From assembly GCF_000010305.1 (NCBI RefSeq), contig NC_012489.1:248001-312000 (forward strand): a stretch of 64,000 nucleotides of DNA, read 5' to 3'. Shown piece after piece: positions 1 through 42,512 of this stretch. Each line of letters opens with the position of its first letter. The stretch's first letter is position 1. Source of the DNA: Gemmatimonas aurantiaca T-27. GTDB lineage: Bacteria > Gemmatimonadota > Gemmatimonadetes > Gemmatimonadales > Gemmatimonadaceae. A program made the position numbers and the translations under genes. The notes under the pieces were generated by a model, which saw nothing but the letters and a program-made list of their open reading frames with translations, was not told the origin of the DNA and did not search any database.

Positions 1-1692
1 GTGACGGCGCGCGTCGTGCCGGTGGCGATGGTGACGGTGGCGCCAGTGATCGATACGATCCTGGTCGGCGACTCCGTCGTATTCACGGCCACCGCTCGTG
101 ATTCGCAGAACAACGTGCTGACCGGGCGCACCTTCACGTGGGCGTCCTCGACCGGCACGATTGCCACCATCAGCAACAGTGGTCTGGTGCGTGGTATCGC
201 GGCAGGCACCGCCACCATCACCGCCACCAGCGAAGGCAAGACGGGTACCGCCACGGTGCTGGTACAGCCGCGCGTGGCGCCAGTGGCCATCACCATCGAT
301 GTGGCGCTCGATACGATCGAAGCGTATGAGCAGCGCGCGCTCGTAGCGACGGTGCGTGATGCGCAGAACCGTCCGATCCTGGGATTGCCGGTGACCTGGA
401 CGAGCTCCAACACGGCCGTTGCGACCGTCGACAGCACGGGGCGTCTGACGGGTGTCGATCGTGGTACGGTGACCATCACGGCGCGTCACGCGGCGTTGAC
501 GGCCACGGTGAGCCGTGTGGTGGTGATCAAGTATCGCTCGCTGGCCATGGGAACGGCGCATGCCTGCGATCTGGCCAGCGGTGGTATCGCGTGGTGCTGG
601 GGCATGAATGGCAATGACGCCCGCTTGGGCGATACGCAGACGGGTGATGAAGCCCATCGCACGTCACCGGTGCGTGTGCCGGGCAACCATCGTTATACGC
701 AGCTCGTGGCGTTCGCGCGCTTCACCTGCGGTCTGCGGACGGACGGTGTGGCGTTGTGCTGGGGCAACAACGGGTGGGGCACACTTGGTGGTGGCACCAC
801 GGCGGCGTTCTCGGCCAACCCCGTGGAGATCGGTGGTGGTATCAAGTTCACGCAGCTCACCGCAGGCATCGAGCATGCGTGCGGCGCGGCGAATACGTCG
901 TCGAGCCCGATCGTATGCTGGGGTCACAACGATTGGGGGCAGTTCGGCATCGGTAACACGTCGAGCCCGAATGGCCCGGTGCCCGCAGGCACGGCCGGCG
1001 GCAACCCGCCGTTCCTGAATGTCTACGCCGGTGGTTCTTTCACCTGCGCCATTGCGATGACCAACGCCGCCTATTGCTGGGGCGCGAATGGACTGGGCCA
1101 GAATGGCGACGGCGGCGCGCTGACGTATGGCAACACCTATCGCACGTCACCGATCGCGGTGACAGGTGGCCACAGCTTCCGTTCATTGTCGCTGGGCAAT
1201 CAGTACGCATGTGGTGTCACGACGAGCAACGAAGGCTTCTGCTGGGGCAGCAACAACGGCAAGCTGGGTGATGGTGGGTTCACCGATACGTCCACGCCGC
1301 GTGCGGTCGCTGGTGGACACCGCTTCACGGAGATCTCGGCCGGCTACAATCACTCCTGCGGTCTGACCACGCTCGAGCAGATCTACTGCTGGGGTGGCAA
1401 CGGCAACGGACAGCTCGGCAATGCCGCTGCGAACGCGTCTTCGCCGGTGCTCGCCATCAACGGCGTGAAGGCAGCCGAGGTGGAGGTGTCGGGTATCGGC
1501 ACGGGTTCATCGAGCTTCACCTGTGCCGTGTCGAAGGATCGCCTCACCACCTGGTGCTGGGGGCGCAACGACATGGGGCAGCTTGGCAACGGGCAGCGCC
1601 ATACTGCGGTCACGGTGAATAACAGCGCCACAATTGTGGTGGGCCAGCGTCCGCTGGAGGTGGCGACCCAGCGCGCCAACCGCGCGCAGTAA
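1..1692 (+). CDS. Surface protein with Ig-like (Big_2) and RCC1-type repeats, 5' truncated
   Basis: The reading frame is open from the first base of the window, so the N-terminus and any signal peptide lie outside it; 563 codons are visible. Two bacterial Ig-like (Big_2-type) repeats occupy about residues 8-90 and 92-175, each with the typical TWSSS..A.V...G.V.G...GT.TITA pattern. From about residue 178 to the end there are seven RCC1-like blades, each carrying a Cys near its start and a second Cys in a CWG motif (for example HACDL...WCWG, FTCGL...LCWG, HSCGL...YCWG). Proteins with this layout are usually secreted or cell-surface adhesion or ligand-binding proteins; the role here is unknown. 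The paired cysteines suggest one disulfide per blade, fitting an extracytoplasmic location. The gene faces the convergent histidine kinase gene 63 bases away. Confidence 0.85.
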   Translation: MTARVVPVAMVTVAPVIDTILVGDSVVFTATARDSQNNVLTGRTFTWASSTGTIATISNSGLVRGIAAGTATITATSEGKTGTATVLVQPRVAPVAITIDVALDTIEAYEQRALVATVRDAQNRPILGLPVTWTSSNTAVATVDSTGRLTGVDRGTVTITARHAALTATVSRVVVIKYRSLAMGTAHACDLASGGIAWCWGMNGNDARLGDTQTGDEAHRTSPVRVPGNHRYTQLVAFARFTCGLRTDGVALCWGNNGWGTLGGGTTAAFSANPVEIGGGIKFTQLTAGIEHACGAANTSSSPIVCWGHNDWGQFGIGNTSSPNGPVPAGTAGGNPPFLNVYAGGSFTCAIAMTNAAYCWGANGLGQNGDGGALTYGNTYRTSPIAVTGGHSFRSLSLGNQYACGVTTSNEGFCWGSNNGKLGDGGFTDTSTPRAVAGGHRFTEISAGYNHSCGLTTLEQIYCWGGNGNGQLGNAAANASSPVLAINGVKAAEVEVSGIGTGSSSFTCAVSKDRLTTWCWGRNDMGQLGNGQRHTAVTVNNSATIVVGQRPLEVATQRANRAQ

Positions 1693-1706
1693 GTCGTGCG
1701 CCAGGT

Positions 1707-1748
1707 GTCGGAGCCGCCGATCCGAACCTCGATGCGCGCGGCTCCGAC
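1707..1748. terminator. Putative hairpin between convergent genes
   Basis: A perfect 10-bp inverted repeat (GTCGGAGCCG at 1707-1716, CGGCTCCGAC at 1739-1748) with a 22-nt loop fills the gap between the RCC1 protein and the histidine kinase. There is no T-run, so factor-independent termination is uncertain. Confidence 0.4.
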
Positions 1749-1755
1749 CTGATGA

Positions 1756-4176
1756 TCAGGAAACGGGTGTGCCGCTCGGAGGTGTGGTGCGGCGCGCGCT
1801 GTACACGGCGCTGAGGAGTTCCTGCGCCGAAAATGGCTTGTCCATGACGACGGTGGCCGCCGAGGCAAGCAATGCGGTCGGCCATCCGTCGCGTGTGAAT
1901 CCCGAGATCAGCACGATGGGCAACGCGGGATTCATGGCACGGAACGCGAGCGCCACGGCATCACCACGCACATGTGGCATGTCGTAGTCGGTGATGAGCA
2001 CATCGATCGGGCGTGAGGGGGATGCGCTGGCTGTGATCGCTTCCTGACCGTTCTCTACGGCGGTGACATGAAAACCTGCCCGCGTGAGGATCCGCTCGAG
2101 CAGATTGCGCACTTCAGGCTGATCTTCCGCGACCAGCACATGGGCCTGAACCTCCGAGAGAGCAACGGCCGGCACCGGCACGGACGGATCATCGGATGCG
2201 CCACTGGCTTCGGGGAGCCAGATGGTGATGGTCGTGCCGTCTCCTGGTGCGGTGCGCACGTGCACATGCCCCCCGTGGTATTGCACGGTGCCGTACACCA
2301 TGGCCAGTCCGAGTCCTGTGCCTTGTCCGACGCCCTTGGTGGTGAAGAAGGGCTCGAAAATCCGGCGTCGTACGTCCGGGGTCATGCCATGCCCGGTATC
2401 GCTCACCGTCAGCCGCACCCATGCGCCAGCGGGCGGATGATCGGGCGATTCCTGGCTCGTGGTTTCCACATCGTCGAGCTCGATGACGAGACGTCCACCC
2501 TTGGGCATCGCATCGCGCGAGTTCACGGCCAGATTCATGATCGCCTGTTCGATACGCCCGGCATCGACACGCACCAACTTGTGGCTGGCGGTGTGCACGT
2601 CGAGCGTGACGGAGGCCGGCATCACGCGGACCAGCAGCGCCGCGGCGCCCTGCACGATCGCATCGAGCCGCTGCGGGGCATTGCTCAGCGGCGCGCGGCG
2701 TGAGAAATCGAGCAATTGCCGCGTGAGCGACCCCGATCGGCTGGCCGACGACTTGATGGTGGCCAGTTCGGCGCGGGCGGGGTGATCGATCGGCAATTCG
2801 TCGAGCGCGAGATCGGCGCTGCCCACGATGGCCGTGAGCAGGTTGTTGAAATCGTGCGCCACGCCGCCAGCCAGGCGACCCAGCGATTCCATGCGCTCGG
2901 CGTGCCGCATGCGATCCTGCCGTACTTCGAGTTGCGACGCCATCGTGTCGAAGGAGTCGGCGAGCTGGCTGATCTCGCCCGTGGTGCTCGCCACACCGGT
3001 GCGGGCCGACAGGTCGCCGGCCCCGAGTCGCCGCGTGGCCGCGAGAATGGCGTTCACGTCACGCAGCACAAGCCTCTCGGCGCCGAACCACGCAATCACC
3101 AGTGCCACCGCGCCGGCCACAAAGAGGAACGCCAGCCGCACCCGGGCTCGCTCGGTGGGTGCAGCAAAGGCGACATCGGGCGACATGACCATGGCGAGTC
3201 GTACGAAGCTGCCTTCGGCACTCGCGAGCTGGTGGTAGGCCACCAGGCGCATAATGCCCTTGCGATTGTTGCGGATGGTGACGCCACTTCTGGGATCCAT
3301 CGTGCGCCGGTCCTGCTCTATCATGGCACTGAGGCCCGGCACACGGGTGCCCACCAGATCCGGCAGCGCCGGAAGGGTGGCGTAGACGAAACCGGTGGAA
3401 TCGACGATGGACAGTTGTGACCCCGGCGGCAATTCCGCGTCGCTGGCCAAGCGGCCCAGCCACCCGATACGAATGCCGATCGACAGCACGCCAACGAACC
3501 GACCTGTCGAATCACGCAGGGCGATGGACAGCGGCATTACCACTTCGCGATCGATGCTGGCGGGGAGATGCATGCCCAGTACGGCCGAGTCGACAGCGAG
3601 AATGCGCTGGGCGATGGGGCCATCCCCTACCAGGTCGGTGCCGCCGGGTGGCAGGGGGCCACCACAATCGACCTCCCCCCGCGTGTTGACGCGGGTGGGC
3701 AACACGGCCGACGGTGCAAACCGGGAGAGTCGGGCGAGTGTCGCTTCACATTCTGCACGTGTGCCGCTGATGATCTCCGGTACCTGCGCCCAGGTGCCGA
3801 TGATACGACGCCCGGATCCAAGCTGGAGGTCATTCTCGTGCGCCGCTCCGCTCAACATCTGGGTCAGGTGCGTGCGCACGGCGTCGAACGCCTCTTCCCG
3901 GTCGCGACTGATCGTCCAGAGGGTCAGCCCCACTGCGGGCAGATACGCAGCCGCGACCAACAGTAGCAGACGTGTCCGAAGACTCGAGAGCGACAGTGCC
4001 AAGGCCTGGCGGGAGAGCGGTGAGGGGGAAGTCAACGCAAGGGGCGAGTCGACGCGAACCGGTTCCTTCGGTGGCAACGGCGTGCGATCATGAAGCAACG
4101 AGTAGCCTGCCGTGATGACTTCCAAACGGTGGCTCCACAATAACTGCAATCGGCCTCTTCGGAAGAGTTCGCCCAT
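1756..4176 (-). CDS. Membrane-bound hybrid sensor histidine kinase with C-terminal receiver domain
   Basis: A hybrid two-component kinase of about 806 residues. A membrane helix lies at about 68-88, a cache-like extracytoplasmic sensor region at about 90-340 and a second helix at about 348-366. A HAMP-type linker follows, then a dimerisation helix with phospho-acceptor H441 (GGVAHDFNNLL), a HATPase domain (N box NLAVNSRDA, G boxes DTGHGM and GQGTGLGL) and a receiver domain from about 690 with acceptor Asp in LITDYDMP. Kinases of this type pass phosphate from His to their own receiver; no partner regulator is adjacent. I chose the ATG at 4176 because the frame upstream overlaps the neighbouring gene. 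An AGGAGG lies only 2 nt before this ATG, so a downstream TTG start is also possible. The start shares a CATG with the divergent gene at 4175. Confidence 0.85.
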   Translation of the reverse strand: MGELFRRGRLQLLWSHRLEVITAGYSLLHDRTPLPPKEPVRVDSPLALTSPSPLSRQALALSLSSLRTRLLLLVAAAYLPAVGLTLWTISRDREEAFDAVRTHLTQMLSGAAHENDLQLGSGRRIIGTWAQVPEIISGTRAECEATLARLSRFAPSAVLPTRVNTRGEVDCGGPLPPGGTDLVGDGPIAQRILAVDSAVLGMHLPASIDREVVMPLSIALRDSTGRFVGVLSIGIRIGWLGRLASDAELPPGSQLSIVDSTGFVYATLPALPDLVGTRVPGLSAMIEQDRRTMDPRSGVTIRNNRKGIMRLVAYHQLASAEGSFVRLAMVMSPDVAFAAPTERARVRLAFLFVAGAVALVIAWFGAERLVLRDVNAILAATRRLGAGDLSARTGVASTTGEISQLADSFDTMASQLEVRQDRMRHAERMESLGRLAGGVAHDFNNLLTAIVGSADLALDELPIDHPARAELATIKSSASRSGSLTRQLLDFSRRAPLSNAPQRLDAIVQGAAALLVRVMPASVTLDVHTASHKLVRVDAGRIEQAIMNLAVNSRDAMPKGGRLVIELDDVETTSQESPDHPPAGAWVRLTVSDTGHGMTPDVRRRIFEPFFTTKGVGQGTGLGLAMVYGTVQYHGGHVHVRTAPGDGTTITIWLPEASGASDDPSVPVPAVALSEVQAHVLVAEDQPEVRNLLERILTRAGFHVTAVENGQEAITASASPSRPIDVLITDYDMPHVRGDAVALAFRAMNPALPIVLISGFTRDGWPTALLASAATVVMDKPFSAQELLSAVYSARRTTPPSGTPVS

Positions 4177-4756
4177 GACCTCCTGGCTACAACGCTGGTT
4201 CGGCGACCCCGAACCGCTTCGGCTGCACGGCATTCCGGTGGACCTCCGGAACTCCCGTCCTGACATCGCCGATGCCGATGTGCTCGCGCGGCTCGACGAG
4301 GCGCTCGGGCTGATCGCCCAGTATCAGCCACTGCGATTCCGTCATCTCGTGCGCGACGTCCGGGGGATTCGCGTGGAGCGTTTTCCGACCCGCGGTGCAT
4401 TTCTTCCGGCTGAGGAAGTGGTACTGACGGAGCTGACGTTCCTGGCACGTCGCGACATTTCGGCGGCGCCCGTTGCTTCGAGCATCCTGCACGAAGGCGT
4501 CCATGCGCGGGTGCACGCCTTCCGGAGTCATGTGCTGGGTGGCCGCAACGATGCCGAATCGATGGCGCGCGAGGAACGCCTGTGTCGGCGAGCGGAACTC
4601 ACTTTTGGTCAGAGTTTGCCGCCAGCCCTGGGCGCGCCGGTGATCGAGCGCGCGGCCGCGTCCCTCGCCCTTGCTGATGAGGAGGTCGCGCCCACCATTG
4701 ATTGGCAGGAAGCGCGTGCCCGTCAGGACGACGTGGACCGCGGCCGCAACGGCTGA
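4175..4756 (+). CDS. Unknown 193-residue protein with an HEXXH motif
   Basis: No family is recognised. The protein is soluble, with no signal peptide or membrane segment. It contains ILHEGVHARVH, an HEGVH (HEXXH) motif at residues 106-110, which in zinc metallopeptidases supplies two zinc ligands and the catalytic Glu. A third ligand is not obvious, so peptidase activity is only possible. The ATG at 4175 was chosen over upstream in-frame codons because GGAAGAG sits 7 nt before it. The gene is divergent from the histidine kinase, the two ATG codons sharing the tetranucleotide CATG, and its 3' end faces the SRPBCC gene 7 bases away. Confidence 0.7.
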   Translation: MTSWLQRWFGDPEPLRLHGIPVDLRNSRPDIADADVLARLDEALGLIAQYQPLRFRHLVRDVRGIRVERFPTRGAFLPAEEVVLTELTFLARRDISAAPVASSILHEGVHARVHAFRSHVLGGRNDAESMAREERLCRRAELTFGQSLPPALGAPVIERAAASLALADEEVAPTIDWQEARARQDDVDRGRNG

Positions 4757-4763
4757 TTGGCGC

Positions 4764-5690
4764 TCACGCCTCGGTGAGTTTCTCCGACAGCGCCTGCACC
4801 TGCGACAGGAACCACACCCAGCCAAACGGATAGTCGCTGATGTCGGCGGTGCGCTGGAAGCCTGTGTGCACAAACGTGAGGCGCGTGGCGGCGTCGCCTT
4901 CGTCCGCCAGCAGGAAGGTGATGGTTTGTCCCTGCACCGACGTATCGCCGCGCCAATCGGGCCAGTCGAGGGTGAGCCGTTCGTTCTCGACGTATTCGAT
5001 GATACGCGTGGGTCCGCCGCTGACGGCACGCCCATCAATCTCATAGCTCCAGCCGAACACGTACTGGCCACCCGGTCGCGCATCGATGACCGCGTTCTTC
5101 GAACCACACCACTGATTGACCAGTTCCGGCTCGATGAGCGTGCGGAACACCGTGGCGCGCGGCGCGTTGATGACAAGTTCCTTGCGCACTTCCGGAGAGG
5201 GATCGGTGAAGTCGGGCAACACAATGCCTCCCATCTCTCCACTCAGCTCCGCCATGAGGTTGCCCACGACGAAGCGCCAGTGATCGTCGAGTAACTCGCG
5301 TTGCCGGGGCACACCGAGCGCGCCCTGCACCACATGTCGCAGTAGCAGTGTCGTCGCGCCGTCCTTTTTGCCCGGCCCCAGCGTGAGATGGACCTCGGTG
5401 GGCACACCATGCAGTGACCAGGTGAAGGCGAGCACACGATCCGGCTCCCACGCGATGAGGCGCTGCGTGGCATCGGCCGCCGTGGGTGTCTCCAGCGAAT
5501 GGCGTCCCCAGAACCGGAAGGGCGCTCCAGCGGCGCTGCCGATATCCACTTGTTCGGCGAACCAGCGGCGCAGGGCGTCAGGTGCCGTCAGGGCATGAAA
5601 AACGGCACCGGGCATGGCCTCGAGTTGCCAGGAATACTCGTGATGCCATTCGGCATCGGCAGGTGTGACGACAACAGGCGCAACGGTCAT
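4764..5690 (-). CDS. Tandem SRPBCC (AHSA1-like) domain protein
   Basis: A 308-residue protein with two SRPBCC/AHSA1-type hydrophobic-ligand folds: residues about 15-150 (AMPGAVFHALTAPDALRRWF) and about 165-305 (NAPRATVFRTLIEPELVNQW). Each has the usual start of a START-like domain, where a strand is followed by the F..L..P..L..W helix. Such proteins bind small hydrophobic molecules or act as co-chaperones; the ligand is unknown. The start ATG at 5690 overlaps the stop of the upstream ArsR gene by four bases (ATGA), so the two are co-transcribed and probably translationally coupled. ArsR-SRPBCC pairs are very common in bacteria. The two-domain length is greater than the usual single domain of about 150 residues. 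Confidence 0.9.
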   Translation of the reverse strand: MTVAPVVVTPADAEWHHEYSWQLEAMPGAVFHALTAPDALRRWFAEQVDIGSAAGAPFRFWGRHSLETPTAADATQRLIAWEPDRVLAFTWSLHGVPTEVHLTLGPGKKDGATTLLLRHVVQGALGVPRQRELLDDHWRFVVGNLMAELSGEMGGIVLPDFTDPSPEVRKELVINAPRATVFRTLIEPELVNQWCGSKNAVIDARPGGQYVFGWSYEIDGRAVSGGPTRIIEYVENERLTLDWPDWRGDTSVQGQTITFLLADEGDAATRLTFVHTGFQRTADISDYPFGWVWFLSQVQALSEKLTEA

Positions 5691-6025
5691 GGCGTCTCCG
5701 AACGCGCGGCGGCTTCCGCCACACGCTTGAGGTCGTGGAGGCGAGCCGTCCAGAAGACGCGATAGTGGGTGATCCACTGATCGACTTCCCGGAGCGGGGC
5801 GGGGTCCAGCGAATAGCGGCGGGACTGGGCTTCGCGGCGTTCGCGCACGAGACCGGCCTCCCGCAGCACCCGGAGGTGCCGCGAGATAGCCGGGCGGCTC
5901 ACCGGGAAGAGGTCGGCGATTTCGCCGGCCGATCGTTCGGTGTGTCGAATGGCGTCGAGGATGGCGCGACGGGTCGGGTCCGCGATGGCGTGATAGACCG
6001 CGGCGTCGGGAGCGTACGTAACCAT
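5687..6025 (-). CDS. ArsR-family winged-helix repressor
   Basis: A 112-residue regulator with the ArsR winged HTH: IADPTRRAILDAI (helix 2) and AGEIADLFPVSRPAISRHLRVLREAGLV (helices 3-4 and wing). The metal-binding ELCVCDL motif of arsenic sensors is absent, which fits the non-metal subgroup usually paired with SRPBCC genes. It is the first gene of a two-gene leftward operon and overlaps the SRPBCC gene by four bases. A 16-bp perfect palindrome covers its own start codon (6018-6033) just downstream of a promoter-like sequence, so autorepression is likely. Confidence 0.92.
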   Translation of the reverse strand: MVTYAPDAAVYHAIADPTRRAILDAIRHTERSAGEIADLFPVSRPAISRHLRVLREAGLVRERREAQSRRYSLDPAPLREVDQWITHYRVFWTARLHDLKRVAEAAARSETP

Positions 6026-36797: not shown

Positions 36798-36812
36798 TCC
36801 TGGTGTTGTCGT

Positions 36813-37030
36813 CGGCAGGATTGGGATAGACGACAGGCGTTGCAGGGCCGCCTGCGGCGGCGATACCGGCAGGATACACAACCGAATAAAAGCAGGATGG
36901 CCTCCGTGCGAGCAGCAGATGCTGTGTGTCGCACGGAGGCCATCCTGCTTTTATCGGTCGTTCATCCTGACGGTATCGCGCCCGAAGGGCGCCCCTCAAC
37001 ACCCGAGGAACGCCCTCAATCCTGCCCACG
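36813..37030. repeat. Long imperfect inverted repeat with central bidirectional terminator
   Basis: The 236-bp gap between two convergent genes is largely one nested inverted repeat. The core is a perfect 26-bp stem (36886-36911 and 36929-36954) with a 17-nt loop, extended outward by CCG/CGG around a one-base bulge. An outer 15-bp arm pair (about 36861-36875 and 36966-36980) differs at one base (CGATACCGGCAGGAT against CGATACCGTCAGGAT). Further out, arms near 36815 and 37020 share GGCAGGATTG with much divergence between. Two small GC hairpins (36847-36861, 36978-36992) lie at matching positions. The A-tract/T-tract ends of the core fit a bidirectional terminator; the outer arms look like an old inverted duplication. 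Confidence 0.85.
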
Positions 37031-37033
37031 CAC

Positions 37034-38410
37034 TCAGAACGAGTACTCGAGTCCCATCGTCCAGAGCTGGTTGGCGCGCATGCCACCGCGATTGAGCGGC
37101 AGCAGGGCATTGGTCACCACGATGACGTTGCGGGACGCGAGGAACTTGAAGCCGAACGAACCGTTGATGAGATCATCGCGGATATCCGGGATCGTCGTCG
37201 GGTTCACGCTGCGACGGTACGGTGAGTCGTAGAAAATCGGCTTGGGCAGCGCCAACTTGCTGGCACCCACCTGGAATTCGCTCACGATATCCACGGCCAG
37301 TGTGACTTTGGGGCCGAGCAGGTGATCGAAGCCGGCGGTGGCCAGCACGGCATGGTTTTGCGATTCGTCGGCGCGGTAGAGGAAGCCCGTGTTCAGGTGC
37401 GGCGAGAAATTGCCAAAGCGCGACGACATGATAGCCTGGCTGCGTAGTGCGAAGTGACCGAGGCCGAGCAGGTCTTCCACGTCGCCGGTGGGGAAACGTG
37501 CGTCGGCCAGAAAGGCCACCGCCGTGTTCTGTGACTGATACGCATTCACTTTCACGCGTGCCGCCACATCGCCGATGCCGAAGGTATTGCCTTTGGTGGT
37601 CTTGGTGGCCTGCAACACCGGATCGGTGGGCGTACCCGAGAAGAAGTGTGCCGCAGAGGTGCCACCGAACGGATCGATCTGCGCGAAGCTGGTGCCGCTG
37701 AATGACGTCTGCTGCAGCGGTACGACCACACCGAAGTCGATGCGGTCGGTGATGCCAAACGTCGTGTAGAACGACGTCACGTCGACGGCGATGTTGAGGT
37801 TGAGGTTGAAGCTCATCGCTTCATTCTCGAGCACCGGCACACCGTACTTGGAGCAGTCCTGACCGCCCTGCTCGGCGTCGCAGCCATCGTAGTCGACGTT
37901 TTCGTGCGTGAACACGAGACCGACATCAGACAGCGGGCGCCCGCGCAGCGTGGAGAACTGGAAGGTGCTGCGATTCACGCCGGCGAGTACACGACCACGA
38001 CCCAGCGTCTGTCCGCGTTCTGCGAAGATCGGGCCGGCTGACGTGGCCGTACTCACCGGCACGCCGCCCTCGAAGCGGAACGTTTCACCGCTCGTGGTGG
38101 CGCCGATCGGCACGTTGGACACCGATGCGGCGAGCGCACTGCTGATGAAGCCGATGATCGAACCGTTTTCAGCCGCCGCCGACGGAATGAAGTGCGTGCC
38201 GTGTGCGCGAACGCTGGCCGGGTTGGACGAGGTGGCCGAACCGGCGAGGAAGAGGGGCTCTTCACCCTCGCCAAAGACAAACAGTTGCGAGATACGTTCG
38301 CGCAGGCGCTGCGCCTGCACGGTGGATGGAAGCGCGGCGAGTGTCATGGCCGAAGCCAGGGCAATCGTCAGTGCTGGTGTGGAGCGGCGGAGGGGCCAGT
38401 GACGGCGCAT
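37034..38410 (-). CDS. Outer-membrane protein, paralogue A of a tandem pair
   Basis: A 458-residue protein with a signal peptide (about 10-34, cleavage near VQAQR). The body is rich in alternating strands and Gly/aromatic residues and ends in MGLEYSF with a C-terminal Phe, the usual signal for barrel insertion. It resembles transporter-like porins of the phenol-degradation-associated type, but this is weak. The segments TTSGETFRFEGGVPVSTATS, GPIFAERGQTLGRGRVLAG and ARFPTGDVEDLLGLGHFALR are shared almost unchanged with the upstream paralogue. A Cys pair occurs in DGCDAEQGGQDCSKYG. It starts 33 bases after the paralogue's stop, so the two are co-transcribed. Confidence 0.82.
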   Translation of the reverse strand: MRRHWPLRRSTPALTIALASAMTLAALPSTVQAQRLRERISQLFVFGEGEEPLFLAGSATSSNPASVRAHGTHFIPSAAAENGSIIGFISSALAASVSNVPIGATTSGETFRFEGGVPVSTATSAGPIFAERGQTLGRGRVLAGVNRSTFQFSTLRGRPLSDVGLVFTHENVDYDGCDAEQGGQDCSKYGVPVLENEAMSFNLNLNIAVDVTSFYTTFGITDRIDFGVVVPLQQTSFSGTSFAQIDPFGGTSAAHFFSGTPTDPVLQATKTTKGNTFGIGDVAARVKVNAYQSQNTAVAFLADARFPTGDVEDLLGLGHFALRSQAIMSSRFGNFSPHLNTGFLYRADESQNHAVLATAGFDHLLGPKVTLAVDIVSEFQVGASKLALPKPIFYDSPYRRSVNPTTIPDIRDDLINGSFGFKFLASRNVIVVTNALLPLNRGGMRANQLWTMGLEYSF

Positions 38411-38443: not shown

Positions 38444-39763
38444 TCAGAATGCGTATTCGACACCAAGCGTCCAGGTGTACGCGGCACGCATACCACCGGC
38501 GTTCAGCGGCACCATGGCATTTGTGACGAGCATGAAGCTACGCGTCGGCGCGAACTTGAGTCCAACAGATCCGTTGACCAGATCATCCCGGATGTCCGGG
38601 ATCGACGTCGGGTTCACGAGGCGACGAAAGGGCGCGTCGAAAGTGACGGCGCCGGGCAATTGAAGCAAGTCACCACCCACCTGAAACTCACTCACCAGAT
38701 CGAGCGCCAGCGTCACCTTGGGGCTCAGCAAGTGATCAAAACCGGCGGTGGCCATGAAGGCGTGGTTGCGGGCCTCGCCGGCGCGGTACAGAAAGCCGGT
38801 GTTGAGATGGGGTGAGAACGCGCCGAACCGCGACGAGATGATTGCCTGGCTACGCAGTACGAAGTGGCCCAGCCCCAGCAGGTCATCGACATCGCCGGTC
38901 GGGAAACGTGCGTCGGCGATCAGGGCCACGGCGCTGTTTTCGGTGGAGAAGGCGTTCACCTTCAGGCGAGCCGCCACATCGCCCACACCAAACGCGCGAC
39001 CGCGTGATGCCGAAGAGGCCTGCAGCACCGGATTGCTGGGCGTGCCGGCGAAGTAGTGCGTCGCCGGCCCATTGCCGTGAATCTCGATCTGCGCGGCGTT
39101 GGTGCCCTGGAAGGCCACCTGTTGCATCGGGATCACGATCCCGAAATCGATGCGGTTGGTGATGCCGATGGTCGTGTAGAACGTGGTCACGTCGACCGCG
39201 AGATCGAGATCGAGCGAAAATCGCGTCAGGTCGTTTTCATAGCCCGGCACGCCGTATTGGGTGCAGTCCTTGCCACCGTGTTCGGCGTCGCAACCGGGGT
39301 AGTCGACATTTTCATGCAGGAACGCCAGGCCGATATCGGACATCGGTTTGCCGCGCAGCGATGTGAATCGAAAGCTGCTGCGATTGAGCCCGGCGAGCAT
39401 GCGGCCACGGCCCAGGGTCTGTCCACGTTCGGCGAAGATCGGGCCGGCCGATGTGGCGGTGCTGATCGGGATGCCGCCTTCAAACCGGAACGTCTCGCCG
39501 CTGGTGGTGGCCCCGATGGGGATATTGGCCACGGCATTGGCCATCGTGCTGCCCAGAAACCCGATGGCCGCAGCGCCGGAGAGATCGGGCGCGGTGATGA
39601 TGTGCGAACCATGCTGGTGCACGCCGCCCGGCGAAGAGGACGTCGACGGATCACCGAACAGGAAGAGCTGCGCGATGCGGTCCCGCAGTCGCTGCGCCTG
39701 GGCGGTGGAGGGCGGAACTGCAACAGCAACGGCAAGACAGACCAACAACACACTGCGACGCAT
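38444..39763 (-). CDS. Outer-membrane protein, paralogue B of a tandem pair
   Basis: A 439-residue protein. The ATG at 39763 begins a signal peptide (MRRSVLLVCLAVAVAVPP, cleavage near AQAQR); the open frame upstream is not coding-like. The mature protein is closely similar to the downstream paralogue over its whole length, including the Cys pair (PGCDAEHGGKDCTQYG), TTSGETFRFEGGIPISTATS and the last strand LGVEYAF ending in Phe. The two differ mainly in the N-terminal 60 residues, where this copy has HQHGSHIITAPDLSG. The pair likely arose by local duplication. The role is unknown; transport or sensing across the outer membrane is possible. Confidence 0.82.
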   Translation of the reverse strand: MRRSVLLVCLAVAVAVPPSTAQAQRLRDRIAQLFLFGDPSTSSSPGGVHQHGSHIITAPDLSGAAAIGFLGSTMANAVANIPIGATTSGETFRFEGGIPISTATSAGPIFAERGQTLGRGRMLAGLNRSSFRFTSLRGKPMSDIGLAFLHENVDYPGCDAEHGGKDCTQYGVPGYENDLTRFSLDLDLAVDVTTFYTTIGITNRIDFGIVIPMQQVAFQGTNAAQIEIHGNGPATHYFAGTPSNPVLQASSASRGRAFGVGDVAARLKVNAFSTENSAVALIADARFPTGDVDDLLGLGHFVLRSQAIISSRFGAFSPHLNTGFLYRAGEARNHAFMATAGFDHLLSPKVTLALDLVSEFQVGGDLLQLPGAVTFDAPFRRLVNPTSIPDIRDDLVNGSVGLKFAPTRSFMLVTNAMVPLNAGGMRAAYTWTLGVEYAF

Positions 39764-39839: not shown

Positions 39840-41093
39840 TTATGGCTTCGTGAGTAGGTCGAGCGAAGCCGCCGTGAGGTAACGCAATCCGATCGCCAAC
39901 GACGCTTCATCGATCTGGAAGCGCGGGTGGTGGTGCGGATACATGATGCCCTCGGCCTCGTTCCGGGCGCCGACAAAGGCAAATACGCCGGGCGCGCGCT
40001 GCTGATAGGCCGAAAAATCTTCGCCGCCCATGGACGGACGCATATCGACCAGCGTGTCCACGCCAAACGTCTCTTCCACCACCGCTGAAAGACGCGCGGT
40101 CAGTGCCGGATCGTTCACCACCGGACGGTAGCCCAGCTCATAGCGGAATTCGTAGGTGGCGCCAAAGGCCGACGTGATGCCGGCAATGACGCGTTCCATC
40201 TGTGCGGGAATACTCGCCCGCAGCGTCGCGTCGAAGGTGCGCACGGTGCCGGAGAGATAGGCAGAACCGGGAATGACATTGAACGCCGTGCCAGCAATGA
40301 ACTGCGTCACCGAGAGGACCACCGGATCGAGCGGATCGACGGTGCGGGACACCACCTGTTGCAGCGCGGTCACGACCTGGGCGCCAATGGCGATCGGGTC
40401 GATGGTTTCATGGGGCGCGGCCGCATGTCCGCCCCGTCCCATGATGGTGCACTGAAACGTGTCCGGTGCTGCCATCGCGGGGCCGGAGATGAGACCGATA
40501 CGGCCCACCGCCAATGGCGACCAGAGATGCAGTCCGATCACCTGGTGCACCCCATCCATCACACCATGCTGCACCAGCTCTTCGGCGCCGCCGGGGGAGA
40601 GTTCTTCGGCGTGCTGGAAGACGAACCGCACGGTGCCATGGAGGGCCGCACGATGGCGGGCCAACAACGTGGCCAGCGCGAGCACAATGGCCGTGTGCCC
40701 ATCGTGGCCGCAGGCGTGCATGGCGCCGTCCACCGTAGACCGGTACGGCACATCGTTCTCTTCGACGATAGGCAGCGCATCGATATCGGCGCGCACGGCG
40801 ATCGTGGGCCCGGTGAGCCCCCCACGCAGTTCCGCCACCACGCTGGTGCGTGTGGGCCGCGACACCGAGAGACCCTCGACGGCCGACAGCACATCGAAGA
40901 TGGTCTGTGAGGTACGCACCTCTTCGAAGGCGACCTCCGGATGCATGTGCAGGTGACGCCGCCAAGTGACCACCTGAGGCATCAGGGCATCGATTTCGCT
41001 CTGGAGGAATTCCTGCTGGAGGGGCAGATGGTGGGCAGCGGCCTCAGTCGTGCCGGCATGGCCGGTGTCGAATGGGGTGGCGTGACTCGTCAT
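39840..41093 (-). CDS. M20-family amidohydrolase (aminoacylase/hippurate hydrolase-like)
   Basis: A 417-residue M20D-type metal-dependent amidohydrolase: WRRHLHMHPEVAFEE, VRADIDALPI, MHACGHDGHTA, FQHAEELSPGGAEE and the dimerisation insert IMGRGGHAAAPHETIDPI are all present, and the C-terminal His is in YPHHHPRFQID. Such enzymes cleave N-acyl amino acids, amide auxin conjugates or related amides. GGAGG lies 5 nt before the ATG at 41093. It has no signal peptide and sits divergent from the coiled-coil membrane protein gene, 62 bases away. Confidence 0.93.
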   Translation of the reverse strand: MTSHATPFDTGHAGTTEAAAHHLPLQQEFLQSEIDALMPQVVTWRRHLHMHPEVAFEEVRTSQTIFDVLSAVEGLSVSRPTRTSVVAELRGGLTGPTIAVRADIDALPIVEENDVPYRSTVDGAMHACGHDGHTAIVLALATLLARHRAALHGTVRFVFQHAEELSPGGAEELVQHGVMDGVHQVIGLHLWSPLAVGRIGLISGPAMAAPDTFQCTIMGRGGHAAAPHETIDPIAIGAQVVTALQQVVSRTVDPLDPVVLSVTQFIAGTAFNVIPGSAYLSGTVRTFDATLRASIPAQMERVIAGITSAFGATYEFRYELGYRPVVNDPALTARLSAVVEETFGVDTLVDMRPSMGGEDFSAYQQRAPGVFAFVGARNEAEGIMYPHHHPRFQIDEASLAIGLRYLTAASLDLLTKP

Positions 41094-41155
41094 CGTGTCC
41101 TCCGGGATGTGGCCTGGGGTGTAACCGCGGCGCGGTCGGGCGCGTAGAATCCAGT

Positions 41156-41818
41156 ATGCCTCTCCTGCAAGCTACCACGGTACCCGCGCCACCACTGCCG
41201 CCCCAGGCACCTTCGGCGGTGGTGGGTGGCACCACGATACCGCTGAACAACACCCCGGTGAGCGCGGCGGATCTGGCCGCGTTGCGCTCTCGGCGCACGG
41301 AGCTGTCCAATCAGCTCACGTCTGCGCAGGGACGACGCGATGACCTGGTGAAGGAGCTCCGTACGAGTCCGGAGGGTGTTGCGCGCACCGGCATCGAGCA
41401 GCGCATGTCCGTGATCGACGAGCGCATTGTGCAAATCGAGAAAGACATTGCGGCCAATGGCCGCGAGCTGGCGCGTGCACCACTGGCCCGGGCAGAAACG
41501 CAGGCACCACCGCGCGTCGGCGGGTTTCTCACGTCGGGTCAGGTCACCGGAATCTCCATCGTGTTCACCGTCACGGTGCTGATGCCGATCGCGATGGCGT
41601 ACGCGCGATCGATCATGCGCCGGGCCAGTCAGCCCAAGCCGGCGCCGCAGGTGCTCGAAAGCGCCGCGCGGCTCGAGCGCATGGAGCAGGCCATCGACAC
41701 CATCGCGGTGGAAGTGGAACGCATCTCCGAAGGCCAGCGGTTTGTCACGCAACTCATGGCGCCGAAGCCACAGCAGGACTCGGTGTTGATTGGCGAACGG
41801 CATGAGGTGCCGCGCTAG
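41156..41818 (+). CDS. Coiled-coil membrane protein of unknown function
   Basis: A 220-residue protein. After a proline-rich N-terminus (1-30), residues about 40-115 form a coiled coil (AALRSRRTELSNQLTSAQGRRDDL ... MSVIDERIVQIEKDIAANGRELA). A single membrane helix follows at about 128-150 (GISIVFTVTVLMPIAMAYA) and a second helical region at about 160-210 (ARLERMEQAIDTIAVEVERISE). No family is recognised. The layout suits a structural or scaffold protein. The ATG at 41156 was chosen because upstream residues are atypical. Its stop is the left boundary of the long inverted repeat. Confidence 0.72.
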   Translation: MPLLQATTVPAPPLPPQAPSAVVGGTTIPLNNTPVSAADLAALRSRRTELSNQLTSAQGRRDDLVKELRTSPEGVARTGIEQRMSVIDERIVQIEKDIAANGRELARAPLARAETQAPPRVGGFLTSGQVTGISIVFTVTVLMPIAMAYARSIMRRASQPKPAPQVLESAARLERMEQAIDTIAVEVERISEGQRFVTQLMAPKPQQDSVLIGERHEVPR

Positions 41819-41999
41819 GAACAGCGGGGGGAACACAGACCACGCTGAAACGGGCAGATGGCACAGATACCACACCAATAAAAAAGAGGAGCCTCAGTCG
41901 ACAGGCTCCTCTTTTCTATTTTGCAACTGTTTGTTGAAGCAGTGGCAGTATCTGTGCCATCTGCCCGTTTCAGCGCCGTCTGTGTTCCCCCCGCTGTTC
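41819..41999. repeat. Near-perfect 181-bp inverted repeat filling a convergent intergenic gap
   Basis: The left arm 41819-41870 and the right arm 41948-41999 are 52 nt each and match, as inverted copies, at 50 of 52 positions (CA against GG at arm positions 23-24). The left arm begins the base after the TAG of the coiled-coil gene and the right arm reaches the stop codon of the DUF5519 gene. In the centre, AAAAGAGGAGCCT (41882-41894) pairs with AGGCTCCTCTTTT (41903-41915) around an 8-nt loop, extended by AATA/TATT across one mismatch: a bidirectional terminator. RNA from either strand could fold into a 52-bp hairpin. Origin may be a dispersed repeat or a local inverted duplication. Confidence 0.95.
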
Positions 42000-42393
42000 A
42001 CGCGGGCAGATCGTCGATACTGCGATCAGCGAGCAACGAGGCACGACCGAGCACCGGATGCATGGCCGGTTTGAGTGTGTTGCCGCAGAGTCGTTCGTAA
42101 TTGAGTCGGAGCAGCTCCACCACCGCGGGCACATCGTGCTCGCTGCGGATGCGGAAGCTGATCCAGCCGGAATGAGGGAGTGTGCGGTGCGCGGCCGCGC
42201 GGCCGGCCGCCACGAGATCACGGCGCATGCGCACGGGCACCAGCAGATCGACCACGTTGCCAACGTGCACGTGACCGATTTCCCGTTTGCTCACACGAAA
42301 CTCGACACCACCGAAGCGATGGGGTAACACTTCCACCCCTTCCCACTGACGCACGATCTCGGTGACAGCCGCACCGTAGTCAGTCGTTCCCAT
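41998..42393 (-). CDS. DUF5519 (luciferase-domain-like) protein
   Basis: A 131-residue protein that matches DUF5519: HRFGGVEFRVSKREIGHVH, VDLLVPVRMRRDLVAAGRA, HRTLPHSGWISFRIRSEHDVPAVVELLRLNYERL. This small fold is named after a luciferase similarity, but its molecular role is unknown. The ATG at 42393 has TGGAGGG 5 nt upstream and fits the family; upstream in-frame ATGs at 42429 and 42468 are less likely. Its stop lies at the right end of the long inverted repeat. Confidence 0.88.
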   Translation of the reverse strand: MGTTDYGAAVTEIVRQWEGVEVLPHRFGGVEFRVSKREIGHVHVGNVVDLLVPVRMRRDLVAAGRAAAHRTLPHSGWISFRIRSEHDVPAVVELLRLNYERLCGNTLKPAMHPVLGRASLLADRSIDDLPA

Positions 42394-42466
42394 GCGCGCC
42401 CTCCAGGCACCGTTCGATGTGGAGAGCATGAAGCGCGCCGGTCGCGTGCGCAAGCCTGTGCAATGC

Positions 42467-42512
42467 ACAACACCCCGCGTCGAACAGTGATGCTGTCGAC
42501 GCGGGGTGTTGT
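42467..42512. terminator. Long hairpin downstream of glnN
   Basis: ACAACACCCCGCGTCGA (42467-42483) pairs perfectly with its complement at 42496-42512, and the loop itself extends the stem through ACAG/CTGT with a one-base bulge. It lies 31 bases after the glnN stop and upstream of the DUF5519 start. There is no strong T-run on the minus strand, so it may stabilise the transcript end as much as terminate. Confidence 0.7.

Follow-up and report, generated by a model that had tools for sequence, protein, structure and literature searches.

The window analysed here, the whole stretch of 64,000 nucleotides, covers positions 248001 to 312000 of the single 4,636,964-bp contig of Gemmatimonas aurantiaca T-27 (genome G000). 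Within it, two convergent genes are separated by a gap that is filled completely by a single inverted repeat, as had been claimed in the first-pass annotation (Table 1). The two arms are complementary at 96% of their positions and are spaced by 77 nt. The left arm had been described as starting one base after a TAG; the TAG of the left gene occupies positions 41816-41818, however, and the arm begins at the very next base. The right arm does end within the stop codon of the other gene, which reads TCA on the forward strand (41998-42000) and shares two bases with the arm. Both convergent genes could be aligned to congeners, and for both of them a second gene calling based on a codon model put the start later than the open reading frame listing. 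The A/T-flanked hairpin noted at the centre is real as well: its two arms (41877-41894 and 41903-41920) pair at 17 of 18 positions, preceded by an A-run and followed by a T-run, and RNA folding of the entire element gave about -138 kcal/mol. A 25-nt word from the arm, allowing for up to 3 mismatches, matched the two arms only within the 64-kb window, with 0 matches expected. An unbiased inverted-repeat scan of the window identified a sole further palindrome of the same class, located some 5 kb away from the first (Table 1). Next to this second palindrome, two tandem stretches (37034-37973 and 38444-39383) are about 75% identical at an offset of 1410 bp and are likely duplicated neighbouring genes.

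Table 1. Features of the palindromic locus (window coordinates) and IS3-family-like elements of the same genome (genome coordinates, G000:C1)
Feature	Coordinates	Strand	Remarks
Whole palindromic element	41819..41999	.	181 bp, from one stop codon to the other
Left arm, 52 nt	41819..41870	+	Outer block GAACAGCGGGGGGAACACAGA; inner CAGA-type motifs each ~10 nt
Right arm, 52 nt	41948..41999	-	50/52 complementary to left arm
Terminator-like hairpin in loop	41877..41920	.	A-run, GC stem and T-run on both strands
Left convergent gene	41072..41818	+	248-aa ORF from first ATG; TAG directly 5' of element
Right convergent gene	41998..42468	-	156-aa ORF from upstream GTG; stop shares 2 bases with element end
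Second palindrome in window	36810..37030	.	Family tied to the GxxExxY gene at genome position 2678717
IS copies of one kind	G000:C1 135092-136368, 4262430-4263706, 535128-536403		L033, L032, L246
IS copy of the other kind	G000:C1 3406349-3407629		L034

A BLAST search with the arm sequence gave 57 matches in the genome of T-27 itself, and the palindrome family was absent from all 29 congeners searched (0/29). In its own genome the family comprises about 28 copies, 27 of them two-armed and one a half copy, and the outer block AGCGGGGGGAACACWGA was matched 50 times as a pattern versus once for the reversed control. The copies terminate in (A)ACAGCGGGGGGAACAC, their outer ~20 bp are almost invariant, and the outer block GAACAGCGGGGGGAACACAGA of the left arm is kept in nearly all of them. 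The inner arms differ among loci and agree inside each locus, with an identity of 0.80 within versus 0.71 between loci, and none of 2000 re-pairings in a permutation test (0/2000) reached a value as high. Motifs recur along the arms at a spacing of about 10 nt (autocorrelation peaks at 9-11 and 20), and all stems examined folded strongly as RNA. The loops vary in length, with no common sequence evident, and hold a terminator-like hairpin in some copies and only a few bases in others. No target-site duplication was evident at the ends of the elements.

Four origins had been offered for arms of this length and conservation. Among these, a mobile palindromic repeat is supported by the dispersed copies and by the empty site in congeners. 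A recent duplication as a purely local event is excluded because the copies are dispersed and mutually different, and an assembly artefact is excluded on the same grounds. Gene conversion between the arms fits the agreement of arms within each locus, but does not account for the origin of the element. The sequence is a copy of a repeat family, but one for which no published description was found: in a search of Rfam 15, no match came anywhere near the gathering score of its family, and a literature search with words from the arm returned no description of the repeat, the lone similar word lying in a Bacteroides fragilis primer (PMC3090145).

The gene context, based on our own codon-model gene calls, was convergent for 17 of 27 copies, codirectional for seven and divergent for three, the last being a class that inspection of the open reading frames did not settle. 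The convergent share compares with 16% of gene pairs (p = 5e-8), and six of the seven codirectional copies sit 5-38 nt past a stop codon. All copies but one (27/28) fall in that 57% of the origin-to-terminus distance which is nearest to the origin (KS p = 2e-4), the origin being marked by dnaA and dnaN at coordinates 1-6000.

Nine congeners allowed alignment of both genes that flank the window locus, and none of them has the element (0/9); in most, the two stop codons overlap or nearly adjoin, and in two a longer, unrelated spacer lies between them. As the flanking genes are present and the element is absent in all nine, the element represents an addition in the lineage of T-27. The core motif was likewise missing from a further 297 genomes of the phylum. 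Scanning 400 kb of each of two complete congeners in an unbiased way yielded 22 and 21 long palindromes that belong to several species-specific families; the full-element DNA search in relatives had missed such divergent families, which the reading of orthologous gaps alone revealed. At the locus at 64606, the corresponding gap of four congeners (L173, L174, L176, L179) is also occupied by a long palindrome, but its arms are different, as though this slot had been colonised more than once. Around the copies at 4162244 and 4166490, little of the surrounding region was alignable in congeners. Palindromes with the same base also occurred in MAGs of Planctomycetota and Bacteroidota, and the viral collection did not contain any copy of the base pattern.

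Two kinds of IS3-family-like elements occur in the genome, one in three copies and the other in one, the family being judged from the protein sequences and the ends, without a family search. All four copies (4/4) lie inside palindrome loops, as if these elements were targeted to palindromes. The copy at 535128 sits in a variant palindrome that had been missed by the arm search. Insertion of IS elements inside extragenic palindromes has been reported earlier for REP sequences (PMC1525189).

Outside the window, a gene at about 136444-136872 (genome coordinates) sits between two copies of the palindrome. Its product is a GxxExxY protein, scoring 125 bits with TIGR04256 (cut-off 35) and 133.5 bits with PF13366 (cut-off 22). 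PF13366 genes were present in all nine Gemmatimonas genomes tested (9/9), with two to six per genome. To our knowledge, GxxExxY proteins are annotated in many bacterial genomes without an assigned function, and the library names of TIGR04256 and PF13366 (PDDEXK_3) convey nothing on function beyond the superfamily. Among 11 diverse members the residues E30, D69, E79-x-K81, Q93 and Y97 are invariant; they fit a putative PD-(D/E)XK nuclease, with D69, E79 and K81 matching the D...ExK catalytic signature. The strand order of an AF2 model fits the PD-(D/E)XK core, but at a pLDDT of 65. None of the Foldseek matches of this model in the PDB was significant; many of the top ones were PD-(D/E)XK-fold nucleases, and the weak matches included Hjc, RecU and SSO0001 among restriction enzymes. 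A sequence search of the PDB with the GxxExxY profile returned no relative. Among the open-access papers searched, none was found that ties GxxExxY to repeats.

The dispersed palindromes of three Gemmatimonas species (genomes G000, G028 and G029) were compared with the flanks of GxxExxY genes. In G000 all 11 matched the flanks of GxxExxY genes of their own genome (11/11), nine of them those of the gene at ~136444-136872 (136464) and two, including the second palindrome of the window, those of the gene at 2678717. In genome G029 this applied to 19 of 19 palindromes, a count that leaves out two gene-adjacent ones and is spread over five GxxExxY genes, and in genome G028 to 10 of 22. The flank-match scores were 40-107 for GxxExxY genes of the own genome, versus medians of 18-28 for the flanks of random genes and 21-48 for GxxExxY flanks of other genomes; for the palindrome at 38091 in G000, a GxxExxY flank from another genome outscored that of its own genome. 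Some random genes near a family copy also match, at 0-7% in G000. Of 30 Gemmatimonas GxxExxY genes, 12 carry a palindrome no more than 60 nt 3' of their stop codon, and the remaining 18 have none directly 3'; among random genes the count was 33 of 360 (p = 2.5e-5). Thresholds throughout were picked after inspection of the data, and the random-gene controls were drawn without phylogenetic matching. Over 15 loci, the similarity of the GxxExxY proteins correlated with that of the arms (Mantel r = 0.52, p = 0.0002), a co-divergence that is partly expected from linkage alone. The association of the palindromes with GxxExxY genes is well supported by these comparisons. Of the 22 palindromes in the region 0-400 kb of G028, 12 match no GxxExxY gene of that genome. 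These 12 include the palindromes at 2939, 206675, 211102, 219567, 277280, 296149, 336362, 372162 and 389407 and comprise, e.g., the AACTGACAACTGAGAACTC and CACTGCGGTTTTGGACG types; they could be orphans or have a different partner.

The arrangement extends beyond the genus. Inverted arms flanking the GxxExxY gene exceeded the 99th percentile of shuffled pairs at 19 of 45 loci (MWU p = 1e-13), one Planctomicrobium gene being counted twice among these. The loci with such arms include members of Planctomycetota, Sphingobacteriales, Bernardetia, Bacteroides and Gemmatirosa as well as three IMG/VR contigs; a scan of the viral collection for GxxExxY yielded three loci only. Gemmatirosa kalamazoonensis possesses two GxxExxY genes, each with palindromes of its own family on both sides and with dispersed copies. 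Among genomes that were reached via periodic palindromes, PF13366 was found in four of five (one as a weak match, one as a gene broken by a stop codon); among those reached via non-periodic or chance matches it was found in none of six. In an Anaerolineae MAG palindromes were present and PF13366 was not found, and the GxxExxY genes of Fusobacteria, Sphingomonas and Persicobacter had no periodic palindrome next to them. No copies of the palindrome motif adjoining the broken Planctomicrobium gene were found in ~60 kb of the MAG that carries this gene. Long palindromes with the base GGGAACACTGA that do not display the periodic motif occur in Thioalkalivibrio (L144, 1491-1617) and Marinimicrobium (L149, 3349-3438); PF13366 is absent from both genomes, and these palindromes probably represent a different kind of element.

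The palindrome between the two convergent genes is probably a copy of a dispersed, non-autonomous hairpin element whose cognate enzyme is the GxxExxY nuclease encoded at ~136444-136872, and we infer that this nuclease mobilises the element. According to this model, the GxxExxY nuclease would recognise the stem by its conserved outer block and by the motif that recurs about once per helical turn, and would cut the hairpin or cruciform, upon which the element is copied to new sites and the nuclease's own family is spread. The copies that survive would be those sitting where they are harmless, after stop codons, and copies between convergent stops would be tolerated because neither a gene nor a promoter is broken. 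At such positions they may form long 3' hairpins on both mRNAs, and the loop of the window copy would contribute its bidirectional terminator-like hairpin; any function as a terminator or long 3' hairpin could be secondary. The symmetry of the arms could be maintained because the enzyme requires a paired stem, or through hairpin-templated correction. Whether GxxExxY in general constitutes an undescribed, phylum-spanning class, in which each paralogue spreads and diversifies its own long periodic palindromes independently of a transposase as a functional analogue of RAYT/REPIN, we consider an evenly balanced question.

Other explanations have to be weighed against mobilisation by the nuclease. 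The palindromes might be kept as 3'-end RNA structures, i.e., bidirectional terminators or RNase III substrates, that GxxExxY genes carry like other genes do. Such a role is in line with the marked preference for convergent gaps and for sites directly past stop codons, with the terminator-like hairpin held by the window copy and with the strong folding of all stems. However, it leaves unexplained that palindrome families map to the GxxExxY flanks of their own genome and that arms surround the GxxExxY gene in other phyla, and the inner terminator is missing from several copies. Selection for an RNA duplex, the last of the four origins offered in the first-pass annotation, also left no significant signal, as G-U mismatches in codirectional copies exceeded A-C mismatches by 73 to 57 (p = 0.19). 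We regard maintenance as RNA structures as quite unlikely. It also appears rather unlikely that GxxExxY is a resident nuclease which acts on extruded palindromes, processing or restraining them, and does not mobilise them. GxxExxY would then co-evolve with the palindromes because these are its substrate or its regulator. Junction and hairpin nucleases are among the members of the PD-(D/E)XK superfamily, and the weak fold matches to Hjc, RecU and SSO0001 as well as the mostly chromosomal location of the GxxExxY gene in few copies would agree with a resident function; the mapping of families to genes and the species-specific turnover would, however, follow more readily from a gene that spreads its own family.

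The four IS3-family-like insertions raise the question of whether the palindromes are MITEs moved by a DDE transposase such as that of these elements, which we consider very improbable. The ends of the IS elements (TGTCGCGTCC..., TGAGC..TGCCCCGG...) are unlike the arms, and each IS represents an insertion in a loop. In addition, a MITE family would be expected to share internal sequence, whereas the loops of the palindromes differ in length and sequence and it is the arms that agree within loci. Least probable of all is that the palindromes form a REP/REPIN system served by a RAYT (Y1) transposase, even though the layout is the same: inverted repeats on either side of the enzyme gene, cognate palindromes dispersed in the genome, co-evolution of the two and compensatory changes (PMC2817692; PMC3116915). 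Here, the stems measure ~50 bp, the GTAG/CGTC tag is missing and no PF01797 gene is present. The Y1 transposase model (PF01797) gave no match in G000, G028 and G029, and it does detect the E. coli and other controls.

If GxxExxY is the partner of the palindromes, a protein family that has a name but no known role would gain one, and an explanation would be at hand for a class of hairpins that are dispersed in genomes of Gemmatimonadota, Planctomycetota and Bacteroidota at least. The partnership of gene and repeat, for which no published description was found in the open-access papers searched, appears to occur in several bacterial phyla. It would give the RAYT/REPIN design a second representative, apparently unrelated to the first, would make the persistence of gene-repeat partnerships directly testable and would point to a route of DNA mobilisation via a PD-(D/E)XK nuclease.

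Among known systems, a MITE derived from a DDE transposon is characterised by terminal repeats shared with an autonomous transposase element and by a target-site duplication, and neither was found for the palindromes. REP sequences that serve as IS targets (PMC1525189) resemble them in holding IS elements within palindromes, but the palindromes are of another type, and here the two kinds of IS3-family-like element occupied them at four of four places. GTAG/CGTC-tagged palindromic repeats favour convergent and codirectional gaps downstream of coding regions (PMC3733652); the placement is alike, whereas the elements described here have no tag, longer stems and a different enzyme. RAYT genes are flanked by inverted repeats with which they co-evolve and have dispersed cognate repeats (PMC2817692), and REP hairpins display compensatory changes (PMC3116915). 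Membership in REP/RAYT fails on the defining enzyme and the tag: the enzyme here is the PD-(D/E)XK-like GxxExxY protein and theirs a Y1/HUH transposase, ~50-bp stems built of ~10-nt motifs take the place of the GTAG/CGTC head, and the copies number tens here and hundreds there. Both systems nevertheless consist of dispersed extragenic palindromes, each a hairpin of two inverted halves with compensatory changes, and of few distinct enzyme genes flanked by their own repeats with, apparently, one family per enzyme, and in both the families are species-specific and repeats and enzyme co-evolve, as indicated here by the Mantel correlation, to which linkage may contribute.
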